Origin: Carboxylicivirga sp. M1479
Lineage (GTDB): Bacteria; Bacteroidota; Bacteroidia; Bacteroidales; Marinilabiliaceae
Reading direction: 5' to 3'
NCBI RefSeq assembly: GCF_007097485.1
Contig: NZ_VKDE01000038.1
Span: 1 to 64,000, forward strand
DNA length: 64,000 bases
In this document: one piece after another, positions 3,779 through 60,914 of the stretch
How the letters are laid out: each line of letters begins with the position of its first letter
Position numbering within the stretch: the stretch's first letter is position 1
The notes under the pieces: model-generated
What the model was told of the DNA's origin: nothing
Databases searched by the model: none
What the model saw: only the letters and a program-made list of their open reading frames with translations
Program-made: the position numbers and the translations under genes

Positions 3779-4861
3779 TTATGAAATGAGTTCTTGTAAT
3801 TTCTTACGCTTCACTTTACCTGTATCTGTTCGTGGGAATTCATCGACATAAATCATTTCTTTGGGAATTTGATATTTGGATAAACAACTTAGCTGACTCA
3901 ATTCTACATCACACACTGAGCCTGACTCAAGCACTAAAACCACTTTCTGCCCCAACTTCAAATCGGATTTCCACGAAATAACAAATTCATTACTAATGTA
4001 TGCTTGTAACTTTTTTTCCACTTCTTCAGGCACCACTTTAACGCCGCCCGAATTAATAATATTATCTAAACGACCAAGCAAACTAAAATCAAAATCGGAA
4101 TACAACTCTATTAAATCTGTTGTTATCAGCATTGTTTCGTTTACATCAGACGGATGAATCACTAAACATCCCTGATCATTTTTTGATATTTGAATGCCAT
4201 CTAAAACACGAAAAGCATGTTCTCCAATTGAACGAACAGCAATATGCGAAACCGTTTCTGTCATGCCATAACTCTCCCATACCTCACAACCAATCTGCAT
4301 CAGCTTATCACGCAAAGAAGTACTTAAGGCACTTCCTCCAACTAAAATCTTTTTAACGCGAGACAAATCATCAATATTATTTTGCACAATAGTACTGAGT
4401 TGCAGCGGCACCATTGCGACAAAATCGATGGTTTGATTCAGCCCCATTAAAGGATCAGAAGAAACACTTGATGTAATAAGGTTAAATCCTCCAACTATGG
4501 CTCTTACAAGCATCATTTTACCAGCAATATATTGTGCCGATAAACAAAGAAGCGCTGTTTGATTCGCTTGTAAGTTAAAAAAACGAATGGTACGCTTTGC
4601 CGAAGCCAGCATGGCGCTTTTTTTAACTTTTATTAGTTTCGCCTGACCTGTACTCCCCGAGGTTTGTAAGGTGATAAAATCTGAATCATTGATCCATTCA
4701 AGTATAAACTGGGCTATTAACCGATGCTCATGCTCCTCTGATTTTTCACATTGCTTAATGAGTAAGTCCAAGCCGTTTCTGCCCTTAAAGTGTTTTCCGT
4801 TTAAGGTAAGGGATAAATAAGCTGTATATTCAGTTTTGTCTGACATGGTATGATTATTCAA
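3779..4861 (-). CDS. menE: o-Succinylbenzoate-CoA ligase
   Basis: An adenylate-forming enzyme that activates o-succinylbenzoate to its CoA thioester in menaquinone synthesis. The 360-residue length suits the short MenE proteins of Bacteroidota. The P-loop-like AMP-binding motif TLQTSGSTGQAK is near residue 60. ESYGMTETVSHIA (ATP-binding core) and a C-terminal FPRTDTGKVKRKKL segment, with the catalytic Lys, are also present. The start overlaps the menC end by 8 bp, pointing to translational coupling in a menA-menC-menE operon. The start reads MNNHTMSDK; the second Met is also possible. Confidence 0.93.
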   Translation of the reverse strand: MNNHTMSDKTEYTAYLSLTLNGKHFKGRNGLDLLIKQCEKSEEHEHRLIAQFILEWINDSDFITLQTSGSTGQAKLIKVKKSAMLASAKRTIRFFNLQANQTALLCLSAQYIAGKMMLVRAIVGGFNLITSSVSSDPLMGLNQTIDFVAMVPLQLSTIVQNNIDDLSRVKKILVGGSALSTSLRDKLMQIGCEVWESYGMTETVSHIAVRSIGEHAFRVLDGIQISKNDQGCLVIHPSDVNETMLITTDLIELYSDFDFSLLGRLDNIINSGGVKVVPEEVEKKLQAYISNEFVISWKSDLKLGQKVVLVLESGSVCDVELSQLSCLSKYQIPKEMIYVDEFPRTDTGKVKRKKLQELIS

Positions 4862-8873: not shown

Positions 8874-9941
8874 ATGTCTATTAAACAGAACACAAAAAAG
8901 AAAAAAACCAATAAAATATTTATCCGATTAGTATACATCAGCCTCCTACTAATATTGGTGGCGGCATATGTTGGTCAATCTTATTATAAACGCATTTATG
9001 CTCCCTGCGTGGTAGTTGAACAAGGTAAAGAACTCTTTCTAATTCCAACTGGCTCAGACTTTGAAGATGTGCTTATTGCCCTTGAAGATGGCGGATACCT
9101 ATCTGATGTTGATGGCTTTAAATGGGTGGCCAAGCAAAAAAGCTTCACAACAGTAAAACCAGGTCGCTACAAATTGAAGCACAACTGGACCAACAATGAT
9201 TTGGTCAATACCTTACGCTCGGGCAACCAAAGTCCTGTACGGGTTACCTTTAACAACATACGCACCATGGCTGAGTTAGCTGGTGCGGTTAGCATCTACC
9301 TCGAATGCGACAGCCTAACTTTGCTCAAAACCCTTAATGATGAAGCATCATTTAAAAACTATGGTTTTGACAAAGCATCGGCACCTGGATTGTTTATACC
9401 AAACACCTACGAGTTTTGGTGGAACACCTCGCCCGAAGCGTTTATAAAGCGTATGCACAAAGAGTACCTTAAGTTTTGGACTTCCAAACGACTTGAACAA
9501 GCCAAACAAATAGGACTAGAACCTAAAGAGGTAAGTGCTTTGGCGGCTATTGTTGATGAAGAAACCATTAAAACCGATGAAAAGCCAGATGTGGCAGGCT
9601 TGTACATCAATCGCTTGAATAAAAACATGCGCTTACAAGCCGATCCTACCGTTAAATATGCCATTGGCGACTTTAGCATACAGCGTGTTTTAACCAAAGA
9701 TTTAAAAACACCCTCGCCGTACAATACCTATTTACATGCTGGTCTACCTCCCGGCCCTATTCGGGTTCCATCCGTAACGGGTCTTGAGGCAGTTCTTAAT
9801 CACACGCAGCATAAATACCTGTACATGTGTGCTAAAGAAGATTTCTCGGGATATCATAACTTTGCGAAAACATTGAAGCAGCACAATGCCAATGCTGCCA
9901 AATTTCAAAGGGCTTTAAACTCCAATCGTATCTATCGTTAA
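8874..9941 (+). CDS. mltG: Endolytic murein transglycosylase
   Basis: A YceG-like lytic transglycosylase that cuts nascent glycan strands at the inner membrane. An N-terminal positively charged stretch is followed by one membrane helix (about residues 17-36). The catalytic domain shows LAAIVDEETI with the key Glu, then NRLNKNMRLQADPTVKYA and SPYNTYLHAGLPPGPI, all canonical. The ending LNSNRIYR is the usual family terminus, so the gene is complete although a MITE-like element begins exactly at its stop codon. Probably co-transcribed with murB. Confidence 0.95.
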   Translation: MSIKQNTKKKKTNKIFIRLVYISLLLILVAAYVGQSYYKRIYAPCVVVEQGKELFLIPTGSDFEDVLIALEDGGYLSDVDGFKWVAKQKSFTTVKPGRYKLKHNWTNNDLVNTLRSGNQSPVRVTFNNIRTMAELAGAVSIYLECDSLTLLKTLNDEASFKNYGFDKASAPGLFIPNTYEFWWNTSPEAFIKRMHKEYLKFWTSKRLEQAKQIGLEPKEVSALAAIVDEETIKTDEKPDVAGLYINRLNKNMRLQADPTVKYAIGDFSIQRVLTKDLKTPSPYNTYLHAGLPPGPIRVPSVTGLEAVLNHTQHKYLYMCAKEDFSGYHNFAKTLKQHNANAAKFQRALNSNRIYR

Positions 9942-10077
9942 GCATTTTAACCACCTCCCCACTTTGTGGTACTCCTCTTGGGCAAGGTGGAGAGGGATGA
10001 AAAACCGTCCCCTCCGGAATTTTAGGAGGGATGCCGACAGGCAGGTTGGTATAATGGGTTTTAAAAGCAATTTCCCT
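9939..10077. mobile_element. MITE-like element, copy 1 (left end missing)
   Basis: About 139 bp, very similar to the inverse complement of 53108-53260. Shared blocks include CCACCTCCCCACTT, ATGAAAAACCGTCCCCTCC, a GAATTTTAGGAGGG hairpin, GCCGACAGGC and the terminus TTAAAAGCAATTTCCCT. The first ~14 bp of the expected left terminus are absent, and homology starts at the mltG stop codon (TTAAGCAT). No target duplication is visible. It carries no gene. The rest of 10078-10164 shows nothing. Confidence 0.75.
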
Positions 10078-10164
10078 GATGCTTACGGCTAAAAAGTGGT
10101 TTTTTAATTGAAATTGTTTATTTTGATGACCAGCAATGACTCACACTAGTTAAACTTTTGATTT

Positions 10165-12900: not shown

Positions 12901-13760
12901 GCCTCAATAAATAGTATTGATCACTTAAGTTGCTTCTGTTTTTTCACGACGACAGTCTTAAATTCTGTAACAGAGGCACTTTAATGCAGGGCAATCGCAT
13001 TTAAAAATATTTAACGCGTAACTTTTCTCTTAAAGAGAAAAGAACTTGATTTTGCTCTAGCCGCAAGGGCTTTTACTTTCTTCCTTCAGCCGAAGAAAGT
13101 AAACAAAGAAGCCCGCCGACTGCACCACTCGCTTACCCACTAGTTTCTTTGTTTTGAGACAGAAAGAACTCCCTACGGTCATACAGCTTTCTGTCTATTC
13201 AAAATCAACGAAAAGTGGGGCCCAAGCTACGTTGCTGATGTCGGATGCGTAACATGGAGCCTTGTAAGTTTAAATGCGTTTACCGTGTACTTTAATGGAT
13301 GTTCCCTACCTCTCATTTCATCAGCCAACACGGTTAGGTAATCATTACCATCGTACATTTGACCTGAAGCCTGCTTTCTTTAGCACAACGAGTTCACTAT
13401 TCAACCCTCGTTACGCCATCATTAAAAATGCAGCCCCTATAATCTATGCATAGGGTCTATTATTCGATGATTAGAGTCTATTATTTTAAGATTAGTGTCA
13501 TATAACTTAGATTGACGCCCTTCTATACAGGCATTAGATCTATATAAATTTGAGAAAGTATATTCCATACTGAGCAAGATGGCTTCCAAGCAACAATTAT
13601 CAAGATATTTGTTCGCATGCATATGGTTTTGTAGAAGCACTACGCCTATTATTGCTCCAATCACCTGTTGCCAATTGACACCACTACTCTATTCTTGAAG
13701 CCTTGACTCCGTTTTATTAGAACATAAATCATCAACAAGTGACGTTAGTACCAAAAAGAA
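12901..13760. other. Gene-free stretch of ~860 bp
   Basis: No convincing gene is seen. 13020-13200 contains short inverted pieces (TTTTCTCTTAAAGAGAAAA; CTTTCTTCCTTCAGCCGAAGAAAG) of the kind found in decayed Bacteroidota intergenic repeats. 13450-13550 holds short direct repeats, listed separately. A possible frame at 13437-13664 has no family features and overlaps these repeats, so it is not called. Confidence 0.5.
13454..13550. repeat. Short direct repeats at ~21-bp spacing
   Basis: GATTAGAGTCTATTATT, GATTAGTGTCATATAAC and a weaker GATTGACG begin at 13469, 13490 and 13510. GTCTATTATT also occurs at 13455, and ATTAGATCTATATAAA follows near 13531. The spacing is about two helix turns. The function is unknown; tandem protein-binding sites are one reading. 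Confidence 0.45.
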
Positions 13761-30431: not shown

Positions 30432-30872
30432 TTAAAACAAGTACTTTTCCTCAAATGCGATTCCATGCTCACTCAGCAAGCTTATATATTCCTCTTTAAA
30501 GCTTGCCTCCTGATGGTGTATTTCTTGATTCTTCACGTATTCTATCAAATCATTCTTCGAGCTTACATGATAAGTAAAAGCTCCATAGCCATCCTGCCAC
30601 CCCGTAAATTGAGGAAATAATTTTTCTTCCACTATAAAATTTGAAGTGGAGAGTTTAATATCCTTAACCAATAACGCAGGTGCCACCATGGGATGAAGGC
30701 CAACAACAATATGAACATGATCTTCAACTCCTCCTATACGATATAAATGACAATTCTTTTCTCGTAGAATACCCCAAATATATTTATATAGGCGCTCACG
30801 GTTAATTAAGGTCTTTTCTCTTCTTTTGGTGGAGAATACAATCTGATATAATATTTGCGTGTAAGTACTCAT
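30432..30872 (-). CDS. Y1 (IS200-like) transposase, REP-associated (RAYT)
   Basis: 146 residues. An HUH-type single-strand DNA transposase with the HVH metal pair at 52-54 (VEDHVHIVV), the WQDGYGAF signature near 92-99, and the catalytic Tyr112 in EYVKNQEIHH. RAYTs of this sort are single-copy relatives of IS200/IS605 TnpA that act on nearby REP palindromes. Here repeat units lie on both sides (three left, two right). The gene is intact, so the array may still be mobile. It is unlike the second RAYT at 60468 in sequence and in repeats. Confidence 0.92.
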   Translation of the reverse strand: MSTYTQILYQIVFSTKRREKTLINRERLYKYIWGILREKNCHLYRIGGVEDHVHIVVGLHPMVAPALLVKDIKLSTSNFIVEEKLFPQFTGWQDGYGAFTYHVSSKNDLIEYVKNQEIHHQEASFKEEYISLLSEHGIAFEEKYLF

Positions 30873-52296: not shown

Positions 52297-53619
52297 ATGC
52301 GAATATCTATCTTCGTCTTTCTCTGCGCAATTATATTAAGCAATAGCGCTCATCTATCGGCTCAGCGGTTTTTATCAAAGGAATGGGCAGATAGCATAAA
52401 AGTTAAAAAAGAACGTAAAGAGGCCAATGGTAGCCTAATGGTAATGCCCCTTGCTGGCCCGGCTTACACCCCCGAACTGAAACTAAGTTTTGCAGGTGGC
52501 GTTATGACCTCTTTTATGACCAATAAAAAAGATAGTTTAATACAACGTAGTTCTGCCCCAATTATGCTTGGATTAAGTACTTCAGGTGCCTACTTTATTG
52601 GCACCAAGCTAACATCATTTTGGTTGCAAGACAAAATTCGCATTTATGGCGACTTTAATTTCAAACACATGCCCGATAACTATTGGGGCGTTGGCTATGA
52701 TGAAGGTCGCTATACCGAAAAATCGGATTCAACAACTGCCTATACGCGCACATGGTGGCAAATAAATCCCAGAATTTTATGGCAGTTTAAACCTAATTAT
52801 TTTGCCGGCCTGGTAATTGATTACAATTACACCCAAGGTAGTGAAGCAAGTAAAGGGGTTGCTGAAGATCCATATTACCAACAGGATAAAGATCGCCCGT
52901 TAAATGGTGGCTTTGGATTAATCTTTCAGTTTGATAGCAGAGATGTACCTGTTAATGCCTGGTCAGGCATGTTCGCAGAGTTTTCTGCCACCAGCTACAA
53001 CACCGCATTTGGAGGAGATAATAATTATGAGATTATTATTGCCGACTTCAGGAAATACTGGACAATAAAAAAACAAGGCAGAACCATAGCAACTCAGTTA
53101 AAAGGCCAGGGAAATTGCTTTTAAAACTAATTATACCACCCCGCCTGTCGGCACCCCTCCTAAAATTCAGGAGGGGACGGTTTTTCATCCTTCTCCTCCT
53201 TGCCAAGGAGGAGTACCACGAAGTGGGGAGGTGGTTAATATGCTTAAAAGCGAATTCCCTAGTTAAAAGGCCGTTTTGGATATGGCGATGTTCCGTTTGG
53301 GGAGATGTCACAACTAGGAACCCCGTTTGATTTAAGAGGTTATACCTGGGGGCGCTACCGTAATAACTCCATGTATTACGCACTTGCCGAATACCGCCAT
53401 ATGTTTTACAAAAATGATGACACCATAAGTAAGCACGGCTTCACTACTTGGTTGGGTGCTGGTTCTATTGGCTCCGACACCACCGAGTTTGAGCAATACC
53501 TGCCCAGTTTAGGAGTGGGCTACCGCCTAGAGGTTCAACCCCGTATGAACTTGCGTGTAGATTTTGGTTTCGGACTTGAAACATTTGGTTTCTATTTTAA
53601 TTTTAATGAAGCTTTCTAA
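52297..53619 (+). pseudogene. BamA/TamA-like outer-membrane protein split by a MITE
   Basis: The first 270 residues (signal MRISIFVFLCAIILSNSAHLSAQ, then beta-strand repeats) end early at a TAA inside an inserted 153-bp element. After the element and a repeated AGTTAAAAGGCC, the frame resumes as RFGYGDVPFGEMSQLG and DLRGYTWGRYRNN and ends FYFNFNEAF, a normal barrel terminus. Deleting 165 bp restores a 385-residue protein without any frameshift. It belongs to the surface-antigen (BamA C-terminal) family, and the next gene is an intact paralogue. As it stands only a truncated barrel can be made, so it is treated as a disrupted gene. Confidence 0.88.
53108..53260. mobile_element. MITE-like element, copy 2 (complete)
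   Basis: 153 bp flanked by the 12-bp duplication AGTTAAAAGGCC (53096-53107 and 53261-53272). The ends are inverted repeats: AGGGAAATTGCTTTTAA at the left and AGGGAATTCGCTTTTAA read inward from the right. The interior has a CCCCTCC/GGAGGGG palindrome and CTCCTCCTTGCCAAGGAGGAG. It codes for nothing, so movement must depend on a transposase encoded elsewhere. Very similar to 9939-10077, inverted. Confidence 0.88.
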
Positions 53620-53693
53620 AAAAACAAGACAAACAATACCACATTACTATCTGTTAATAAGGGTATAGTAGTTTTTACATTAAAAAAGCATAC

Positions 53694-54746
53694 ATGACCA
53701 TAAGAATAATCCTCATCTTTCTACTTCTGATACTATCCTTGCCATATGCCAATGCATTATCTAAAAAGGATAGTACAGATAAAAAGGTCGATTTTGTGCC
53801 CGTTCCATACATTAATTATAACAGAACAGGTGGTTTTGAATTTGGGGGTGTACCAATGGCTATGTACCAATTAAATAGTAAAGATAGTATTTCACCGCCG
53901 TCAATGACTGGTTTAGTGGGCAAATACTCAACTGAAGGCAACTGGGTTATTATAGCTTTTCAGCGCATGTATTGGAAGCAGAACAACTGGCGCTTGGTTT
54001 TTGCGGCGGGAATGGCTTCCAATGGTTTTCAATATTATTCTGAAATAAATGGAGAGATACCTATAGACTATACAACCACCGCAGCATTTGCTTACATGGA
54101 GATTCAACGGCGAATCTATAAAAAGCTATACGGTGGATTGGTCATTATCAGTAGCGTTACTGATACAGAGTTTGATAACGATTCTAACAGCAAACGGACG
54201 TATTTTAATACAATAGGAACAAAGTTCTCGGTGGATTTGCGAAACAATGTTTATTACCCAAGCGAAGGACTGAATGATAATTTCCAATGGACTTCAACAC
54301 CCGATTTTTTAGATAATGAATTTGTGGGGCAGCGAATTGAGATTGATCACAATCAATATTTTCCCTTTAATAATAAAAGAGATGTTTTCGCTTGGCGCTT
54401 AATGACTGGCTTTAGCATTGGAAGCACTGCATTTGAACGCCAATTTATTGTTGGCCGAAATGATTTAAGAGGATATACACAAGGTGAATACCGGGGCGAG
54501 AGTATTGCCACACTGCAAGGAGAGTACCGTTGGAATCCATACAAAAAAATTGGTTTTGTAGGCTTTGCTGGTTTGGCTACAATTTGGGGTGCAGAGATTG
54601 ACGATAACAATGGAAAAATACTACCATCAATAGGAACAGGCTTTCGTTATAATGTATTTCCTAAGAATCATATGAACATTGGGATGGAGGCAGCTGTTGG
54701 TATAGATGACTGGGGCATTTACTTTAGAATAGGCGAAGCCTTTTAA
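53694..54746 (+). CDS. BamA/TamA-family outer-membrane protein
   Basis: 350 residues with a signal peptide (MTIRIILIFLLLILSLPYANA). An intact paralogue of the split gene before it, with the surface-antigen barrel signature RNDLRGYTQGEYRGES and the ending WGIYFRIGEAF with terminal Phe. POTRA domains are not evident, as the soluble N-terminus is short, so it is a bare barrel rather than a full BamA. It probably shares a transcript with the genes on either side (gaps of 74 and ~20 bp). Confidence 0.8.
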   Translation: MTIRIILIFLLLILSLPYANALSKKDSTDKKVDFVPVPYINYNRTGGFEFGGVPMAMYQLNSKDSISPPSMTGLVGKYSTEGNWVIIAFQRMYWKQNNWRLVFAAGMASNGFQYYSEINGEIPIDYTTTAAFAYMEIQRRIYKKLYGGLVIISSVTDTEFDNDSNSKRTYFNTIGTKFSVDLRNNVYYPSEGLNDNFQWTSTPDFLDNEFVGQRIEIDHNQYFPFNNKRDVFAWRLMTGFSIGSTAFERQFIVGRNDLRGYTQGEYRGESIATLQGEYRWNPYKKIGFVGFAGLATIWGAEIDDNNGKILPSIGTGFRYNVFPKNHMNIGMEAAVGIDDWGIYFRIGEAF

Positions 54747-60467: not shown

Positions 60468-60914
60468 ATGTCCCAATCTTTGTCTAAGGTTTATATTCAC
60501 CTTGTATTCTCAACCAAACATATTAAACCATTGATACACGAAGATGTTCGTTCAGGCTTACAAGCTTACATTGTGGGTACTTTGTCCGAACTAAAATCTT
60601 ATGTTGAAGCGGCATATGCTAATCCAGATCACATACATATCCTATGTACTCTGCCTCGTATTCTTAGTGTGGCTTCATTGGTATCAAAACTAAAGTCTTC
60701 TTCATCAACATGGATGAAAACGAAAGGTAGCCCAAACTTCTATTGGCAAGATGGCTATGGTGTTTTCTCCGTTAGCGCATCCAAATTAACTATTGTGAAA
60801 AGGTATATAGAGAATCAGAAAGTTCACCATCAAAAAACATATTTTAAAGATGAGCTAAGAGAATTTTTGAATCAGTACAATGTTGAATTTGACGAGGCCT
60901 ATATTTGGGATTAA
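60468..60914 (+). CDS. Y1 (IS200-like) transposase, second RAYT
   Basis: 148 residues. HIH pair at 55-57 (NPDHIHILC), WQDGYGVF signature (~93-100) and Tyr113 in RYIENQKVHHQ. Same fold as the RAYT at 30432 but only distantly similar in sequence; it is surrounded by its own repeat family, two units before and four after. Intact, so activity on array B is plausible. Confidence 0.92.
   Translation: MSQSLSKVYIHLVFSTKHIKPLIHEDVRSGLQAYIVGTLSELKSYVEAAYANPDHIHILCTLPRILSVASLVSKLKSSSSTWMKTKGSPNFYWQDGYGVFSVSASKLTIVKRYIENQKVHHQKTYFKDELREFLNQYNVEFDEAYIWD

Follow-up and report, generated by a model that had tools for sequence, protein, structure and literature searches.

A miniature element (MITE) of 155 bp, with ends very probably recognized by an ISAs1-family DDE transposase, has inserted into an Omp85/BamA-like gene of Carboxylicivirga sp. 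M1479, duplicating 10 bp of the target and presumably inactivating the gene. The window is the whole 64,000-nucleotide stretch that was analyzed (C63:1-64000), from an assembly (G000) of 5.4 Mb in 130 contigs. The MITE insertion is real and probably recent, its mechanism is well supported, and its biology is of a known kind. In the proposed mechanism, an ISAs1-family DDE transposase would recognize the 18-bp ends of the 155-bp non-autonomous transposon, staggered joining to a target in the Omp85/BamA-like gene would duplicate 10 bp, and the insertion would inactivate the gene; the interior pair of inverted REP-like hairpins may be a passenger carried by the ends.

The element occupies positions 53107 to 53261 (plus strand), limits that were taken from 25 near-full copies in the same genome. 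Its left terminal inverted repeat, CAGGGAAATTGCTTTTAA, spans 53107 to 53124 (plus strand), and its right terminal inverted repeat, which reads inward as TAGGGAATTCGCTTTTAA, spans 53244 to 53261 (minus strand) and matches the left end at 15 of 18 positions. The target-site duplication GTTAAAAGGC flanks the element at 53097 to 53106 and at 53262 to 53271, with agreement at 10 of 10 positions. Inverted ends of 17 nt (88% complementary) and a 12-base direct repeat were located where the earlier note had placed them, but the boundary set by copy comparison gives a true duplication of 10 bp rather than the 12 bp claimed. By that comparison the outermost bases of the element are C at 53107 and A at 53261, one base beyond the limits given in the earlier note on either side, since 23 of the 25 near-full copies start with C and 24 end with G or A; these two bases happen to match the flanks, which accounts for the longer figure.

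The 177-base stretch containing the element and its flanks had 40 matches in its own genome, from which the 25 near-full copies were used and 15 were left out (one or both ends missing, or short partial matches). One copy, at C46:61088-61242, is identical over all 155 bases. Flanking 10-mers agreed at 8 or more of 10 positions for 19 of the 25 near-full copies (11 exact, five at 9, and three at 8), compared to 2 of 600 pairings of left and right flanks from different copies, and the best-scoring duplication length across the 25 copies was 10. The absence of a clear 10-bp duplication from the remaining six (L015, L025, L028, L030, L031, and L032) might be what is expected of old copies; two of them agree better at nine bases (L015, 7/9; L025, 8/9). 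The element is small, multicopy, and without a transposase gene, and it possesses both terminal inverted repeats and a target-site duplication, as is characteristic of MITEs. The central proposal of the earlier note, an element with inverted ends and a target duplication, is therefore upheld by the 40 matches and by duplication statistics far beyond chance. The window carries another copy of the 155-bp element at 9925-10078, which is damaged (91% identity over 140 bases, right end lost) and abuts the end of an ORF at 8874-9941.

The upstream part of the interrupted gene (52297 to 53106, plus strand) was assigned by homologues and by a match to PF01103 (Omp85; E = 3.6e-5) whose 23.9 bits lie just below the 24-bit cut-off. 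The downstream part (53272 to 53619, plus strand) remains open up to its own stop, and the downstream ORF alone matched no Pfam family. An intact Omp85-like neighbor follows at 53694 to 54746 (plus strand; PF01103, E = 9.7e-9) and is weakly similar to the interrupted gene (38% over 100 aa of the downstream piece). When the upstream piece was searched against 14 genomes of the genus, it gave 54 matches including the gene itself, and 23 of the other 53 were compared. All 23 homologous loci (one from the same genome; 35-49% identity) pass through the site without an insertion, some with a gap of 1-2 residues near the junction; because no other strain of this species turned up among the genomes searched, the empty site was seen solely in homologues no more than 49% identical. 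These results support the claim that a non-autonomous transposon interrupts an Omp85/BamA-like gene.

Computed excision of 165 bp (the element plus one duplication) restored a stop-free frame of 385 residues, as the earlier note had predicted, and the downstream half is still intact, as it had also stated. Its description of the split as in frame did not survive. The element contains six stops in the frame of the gene, the first of which, TAA at 53122, ends the upstream ORF at 275 aa just after it runs into the element; the gene is therefore broken, the multiple-of-three length is incidental, and the product is presumably no longer functional. It is scarcely credible that splicing or bypass of the inserted sequence still allows the protein to be made: the length of the insertion, the intact downstream frame, and a strong RNA fold (z = -6.9) could be read in that way, but the six in-frame stops argue against it, elements of this sort commonly fold strongly according to the available portion of PMC4133298, and the presence of just one of 25 copies in a long open frame reveals no pattern of in-gene copies. 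That one copy is the present one, with 270 codons open before the insertion site and 116 after it. Two other copies have 95 and 62 codons before the site and 16 and 22 after it, and 22 of the 25 are without an open frame of 60 codons, although for one of these 22 (L023) the proximity of a contig end prevents judgment on one side. The identical copy, the exact duplication, and the position of this copy alone in a long frame suggest that the insertion is young and that selection has yet to remove it, and the earlier view of the event as recent is probably right.

Two hairpin units, inverted relative to each other and of one type that we read as REP-like, make up the interior of the element: unit 1 at 53133 to 53178 (plus strand), which includes a terminator-like stem at 53154-53176 that does not rise above shuffled sequences, and unit 2 at 53191 to 53240 (minus strand). 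Over positions 53000-53800, scans found one promoter (1.5 in shuffles) and one terminator-like structure (0.9 in shuffles), and no Rfam family matched in the window at the gathering threshold. As single-stranded DNA the element also folds far better than its shuffles (z = -6.3), and pairing of the inverted ends into a stem contributes to the strong folding of DNA and RNA alike. In an alignment of 13 elements from three genera, the arms of the units are nearly invariant and the region just inside the ends is variable. The covariation term is +0.09, two-sided changes affect 5 of the 47 pairs predicted, and the majority of interior pairs are constant; compensatory change is negligible, and the alignment offers no real evidence that a structure has been selected. 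The units also occur singly. On C39 and C1 of the same genome, seven of the 40 matches span approximately one unit, with the ends absent from their flanks as judged by eye. Another genome (G034) has seven matches that cover only element bases 86-130, and one of its contigs carries three of these within 825 bases. Relatives of 176-179 bp (L202 108-285, L091 399-574, L079 1500-1677, and L080 1274-1452) carry an extra 22-23 bases in the first unit, a small hairpin of the TCCCGA...TCGGGA type, which lies in one arm in L202 and in the other arm in L091, L079, and L080.

REP, REPIN, and BIME palindromic repeats are a known type of sequence, and the interior of the window element likewise consists of two inverted hairpin units; unlike those repeats, however, the units here lie between the ends of a transposon that has duplicated 10 bp of its target. 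This difference bears on the notion that a Y1 (RAYT) transposase moves the element as a REP/REPIN-type unit whose inverted ends are incidental. The paired REP-like hairpins would fit such a mechanism, as would the genome's five Y1 transposase matches, two of which lie within the window. We nevertheless give this idea very little credence, because searches at the five Y1 loci turned up neither of the interior units, and the 10-bp duplications of 19 of the 25 copies and the 18-bp inverted ends are, to our knowledge, not expected of Y1 transposition. Each of the two Y1 (RAYT-like) genes in the window (30432-30872 and 60468-60914) is flanked on either side by repeated palindrome-like sequence that differs in type from the units of the element, and a third match lies beyond the window at C63:75756.

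The driver of the element is most likely, judging from sequence comparisons, an ISAs1-family transposase and not one of the IS4 type that the earlier note had named. A 10-bp duplication with CAGGG ends is suggestive of ISAs1, and the domain associated with that family, PF13808, was therefore searched for; it matched in 10 of 60 genomes (eight above the cut-off), but not in the genome of the element. At three loci from related hosts (L093, L094, and L095), complete elements were recognized that have exact 10-bp duplications and CAGGG(T/C)(C/T/A)AACGCA ends, the rest of their ends differing from those of the MITE. The other seven of the 10 PF13808 loci scanned (L093-L102), several of which are fragments, had no credible end pair. 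The sole match in the same genus (G006) fell below the cut-off, and its locus had no paired ends.

Closer partners were obtained by a protein search, which yielded L120, and by way of the ends themselves. A 23-base end pattern was found in 18 stretches of a named genome collection, all titled as genera or groups that belong to the Bacteroidota. An ISAs1 transposase lay between paired ends in 2 of these 18 (L178 and L182), several of the other 16 having the end too near a contig end to show what it bounds. The first, from Plebeiobacterium sediminum AAT (L178, the same as L120), is an ISAs1 element of 1249 bp with CAGGGAAATCGCTTTTAA at both ends and an exact duplication, TATTAATAGC; its 379-aa transposase scored 385 bits against NCBIfam NF033564 (cut-off 70) and also carries PF13808 and PF01609. 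The second, from Parapedobacter soli KCTC 12984 (L182), is 1230 bp long with the same 18-bp ends, an exact duplication, GTTCTCCATG, and a 58% identical transposase. The left end of the MITE is identical to each end of these two elements at 17 of 18 positions, and its right end at 16 of 18. The duplication is exactly 10 bp in both of them and in L093, L094, and L095, equal in length to that of the MITE. The two complete elements differ from the window element in their length and in encoding a transposase, and they sit in other genera than the host.

IS4-family transposition, by comparison, is highly unlikely. The genome contains eleven matches to DDE_Tnp_1 (PF01609), and a 10-bp duplication falls inside the range of some IS4 subgroups. 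When each match was scanned together with up to 1500 bases on each side, however, no end pair with three or fewer mismatches per end bracketed any of the eleven, so that the MITE has no ends in common with a transposase-bearing PF01609 element of its own genome; pairs with 4 or 5 mismatches occurred at chance frequency. Complete ISAs1 elements elsewhere, in contrast, bear the ends almost letter for letter. One CAGGGAAA near L050/L052 was considered as an IS4 partner and rejected, the best downstream candidate for a matching end reaching 15 of 26, and the end-like sites L061-L066 (up to 4 mismatches) yielded no convincing partner.

The assignment to ISAs1 rests on the shared ends and the duplication length, and the earlier suggestion of a non-autonomous element mobilized in trans is in all likelihood right. 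That note had also proposed a search of the genome for both the end sequence and a transposase with the same ends. The former was abundant, the end pattern with at most one mismatch occurring 25 times forward and 25 times in reverse (the reversed pattern, 0 and 1 times); the latter was not encountered at the PF01609 loci or in the PF13808 search. Neither PF13808 nor a 366-aa ISAs1 transposase had any match in the 130-contig assembly, which therefore lacks a feature that is desirable, though not defining, for an ISAs1-derived element. The same 366-aa query matched in 14 of 71 genomes of the family, the own genome again being without a match, and within 14 genomes of the genus a protein search detected an ISAs1 fragment only in G012. 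A trans-acting driver need not persist in a genome. We infer transposition by an ISAs1 transposase whose source element has since disappeared, is missing from the assembly, or was only in transit. In G012, a damaged ISAs1 adjoins CAGGGAATACGCGTTTAA. A broken, shortened ISAs1 remnant in another genus of the family (G022, L100 116-700) keeps the left end CAGGGCAATCGCATTTAG, of a second MITE type, and could possibly be an intermediate between an insertion sequence and a miniature element.

Similar ends also enclose different interiors. Because 28 candidates were chosen by their ends, the resemblance of the ends is by construction. An end pair was obtained for 26 of the 28, and 17 of these had duplications of at least 8/10 (16 of 25 loci, L187 and L204 being one locus), a count favored by the choice of pairs partly on duplication score; the pair for L198 is probably wrong. 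Grouping of the interiors by blastn (E up to 1e-4, at least 40 bases) placed the elements of Carboxylicivirga and a near relative into five groups with no detectable relation between them, at 155-178 bp (including the window element), 182 bp, 227-228 bp, 232-351 bp, and 228/451/452 bp, and four Mucilaginibacter elements stood alone. A 155-bp relative with an exact duplication occurs in C. marina N1Y132 (L187). The window holds another element of the same end class (CAGGGCAATCGCATTTAA ...) at 12987-13287, which is 301 bp long, has an interior of another group and a duplication of 9/10 (CACTTTAATG/TACTTTAATG), and has relatives in L059, L060, L191, and Marinilabiliaceae bacterium JC017 (L075/L186). 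In Gaoshiqia sediminis (L183), the end sequence occurs at 4562 and 4866 in direct orientation, 304 bases apart and near a contig end, each time preceded by the same 12 bases, ggaagaatgcgc. The different interiors may have been either captured or diverged beyond recognition. It is conceivable, and we rather doubt it, that one pair of ISAs1 ends forms a general shell across Carboxylicivirga and related bacteria that has repeatedly enclosed unrelated dispersed repeats, REP-like palindromes included, with interiors swapping faster than the ends change.

Comparable elements have been ascribed to other drivers. According to the portions available of PMC11578231 and PMC4133298, MITEPye1 of Paracoccus yeei is ascribed to IS1182 and the TIMEs to Tn3-family transposases, and these are like the window element in being short, without a transposase gene, and provided with inverted ends resembling those of an autonomous family, direct repeats, and a stable hairpin fold; the window element differs in its transposase family and its hosts. 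The portions available of PMC11578231, PMC9208149, PMC4133298, PMC3542288, PMC5756416, and PMC3281130 describe no MITE ascribed to ISAs1. The literature searched held no paper joining ISAs1, miniature inverted-repeat elements, and Bacteroidetes, nor any on transposable elements of Carboxylicivirga; ISfinder, which lay outside the search, may well list an ISAs1-type MITE.

These results now provide a likely driver family, together with autonomous partners, for a group of miniature elements from this family of bacteria, and the broken gene is a sign of recent activity of the element. If ISAs1 ends do act as a general shell, sequences with one means of spread would gain a second, and the five interior groups without detectable relation under similar ends would suit testing how MITEs acquire cargo.
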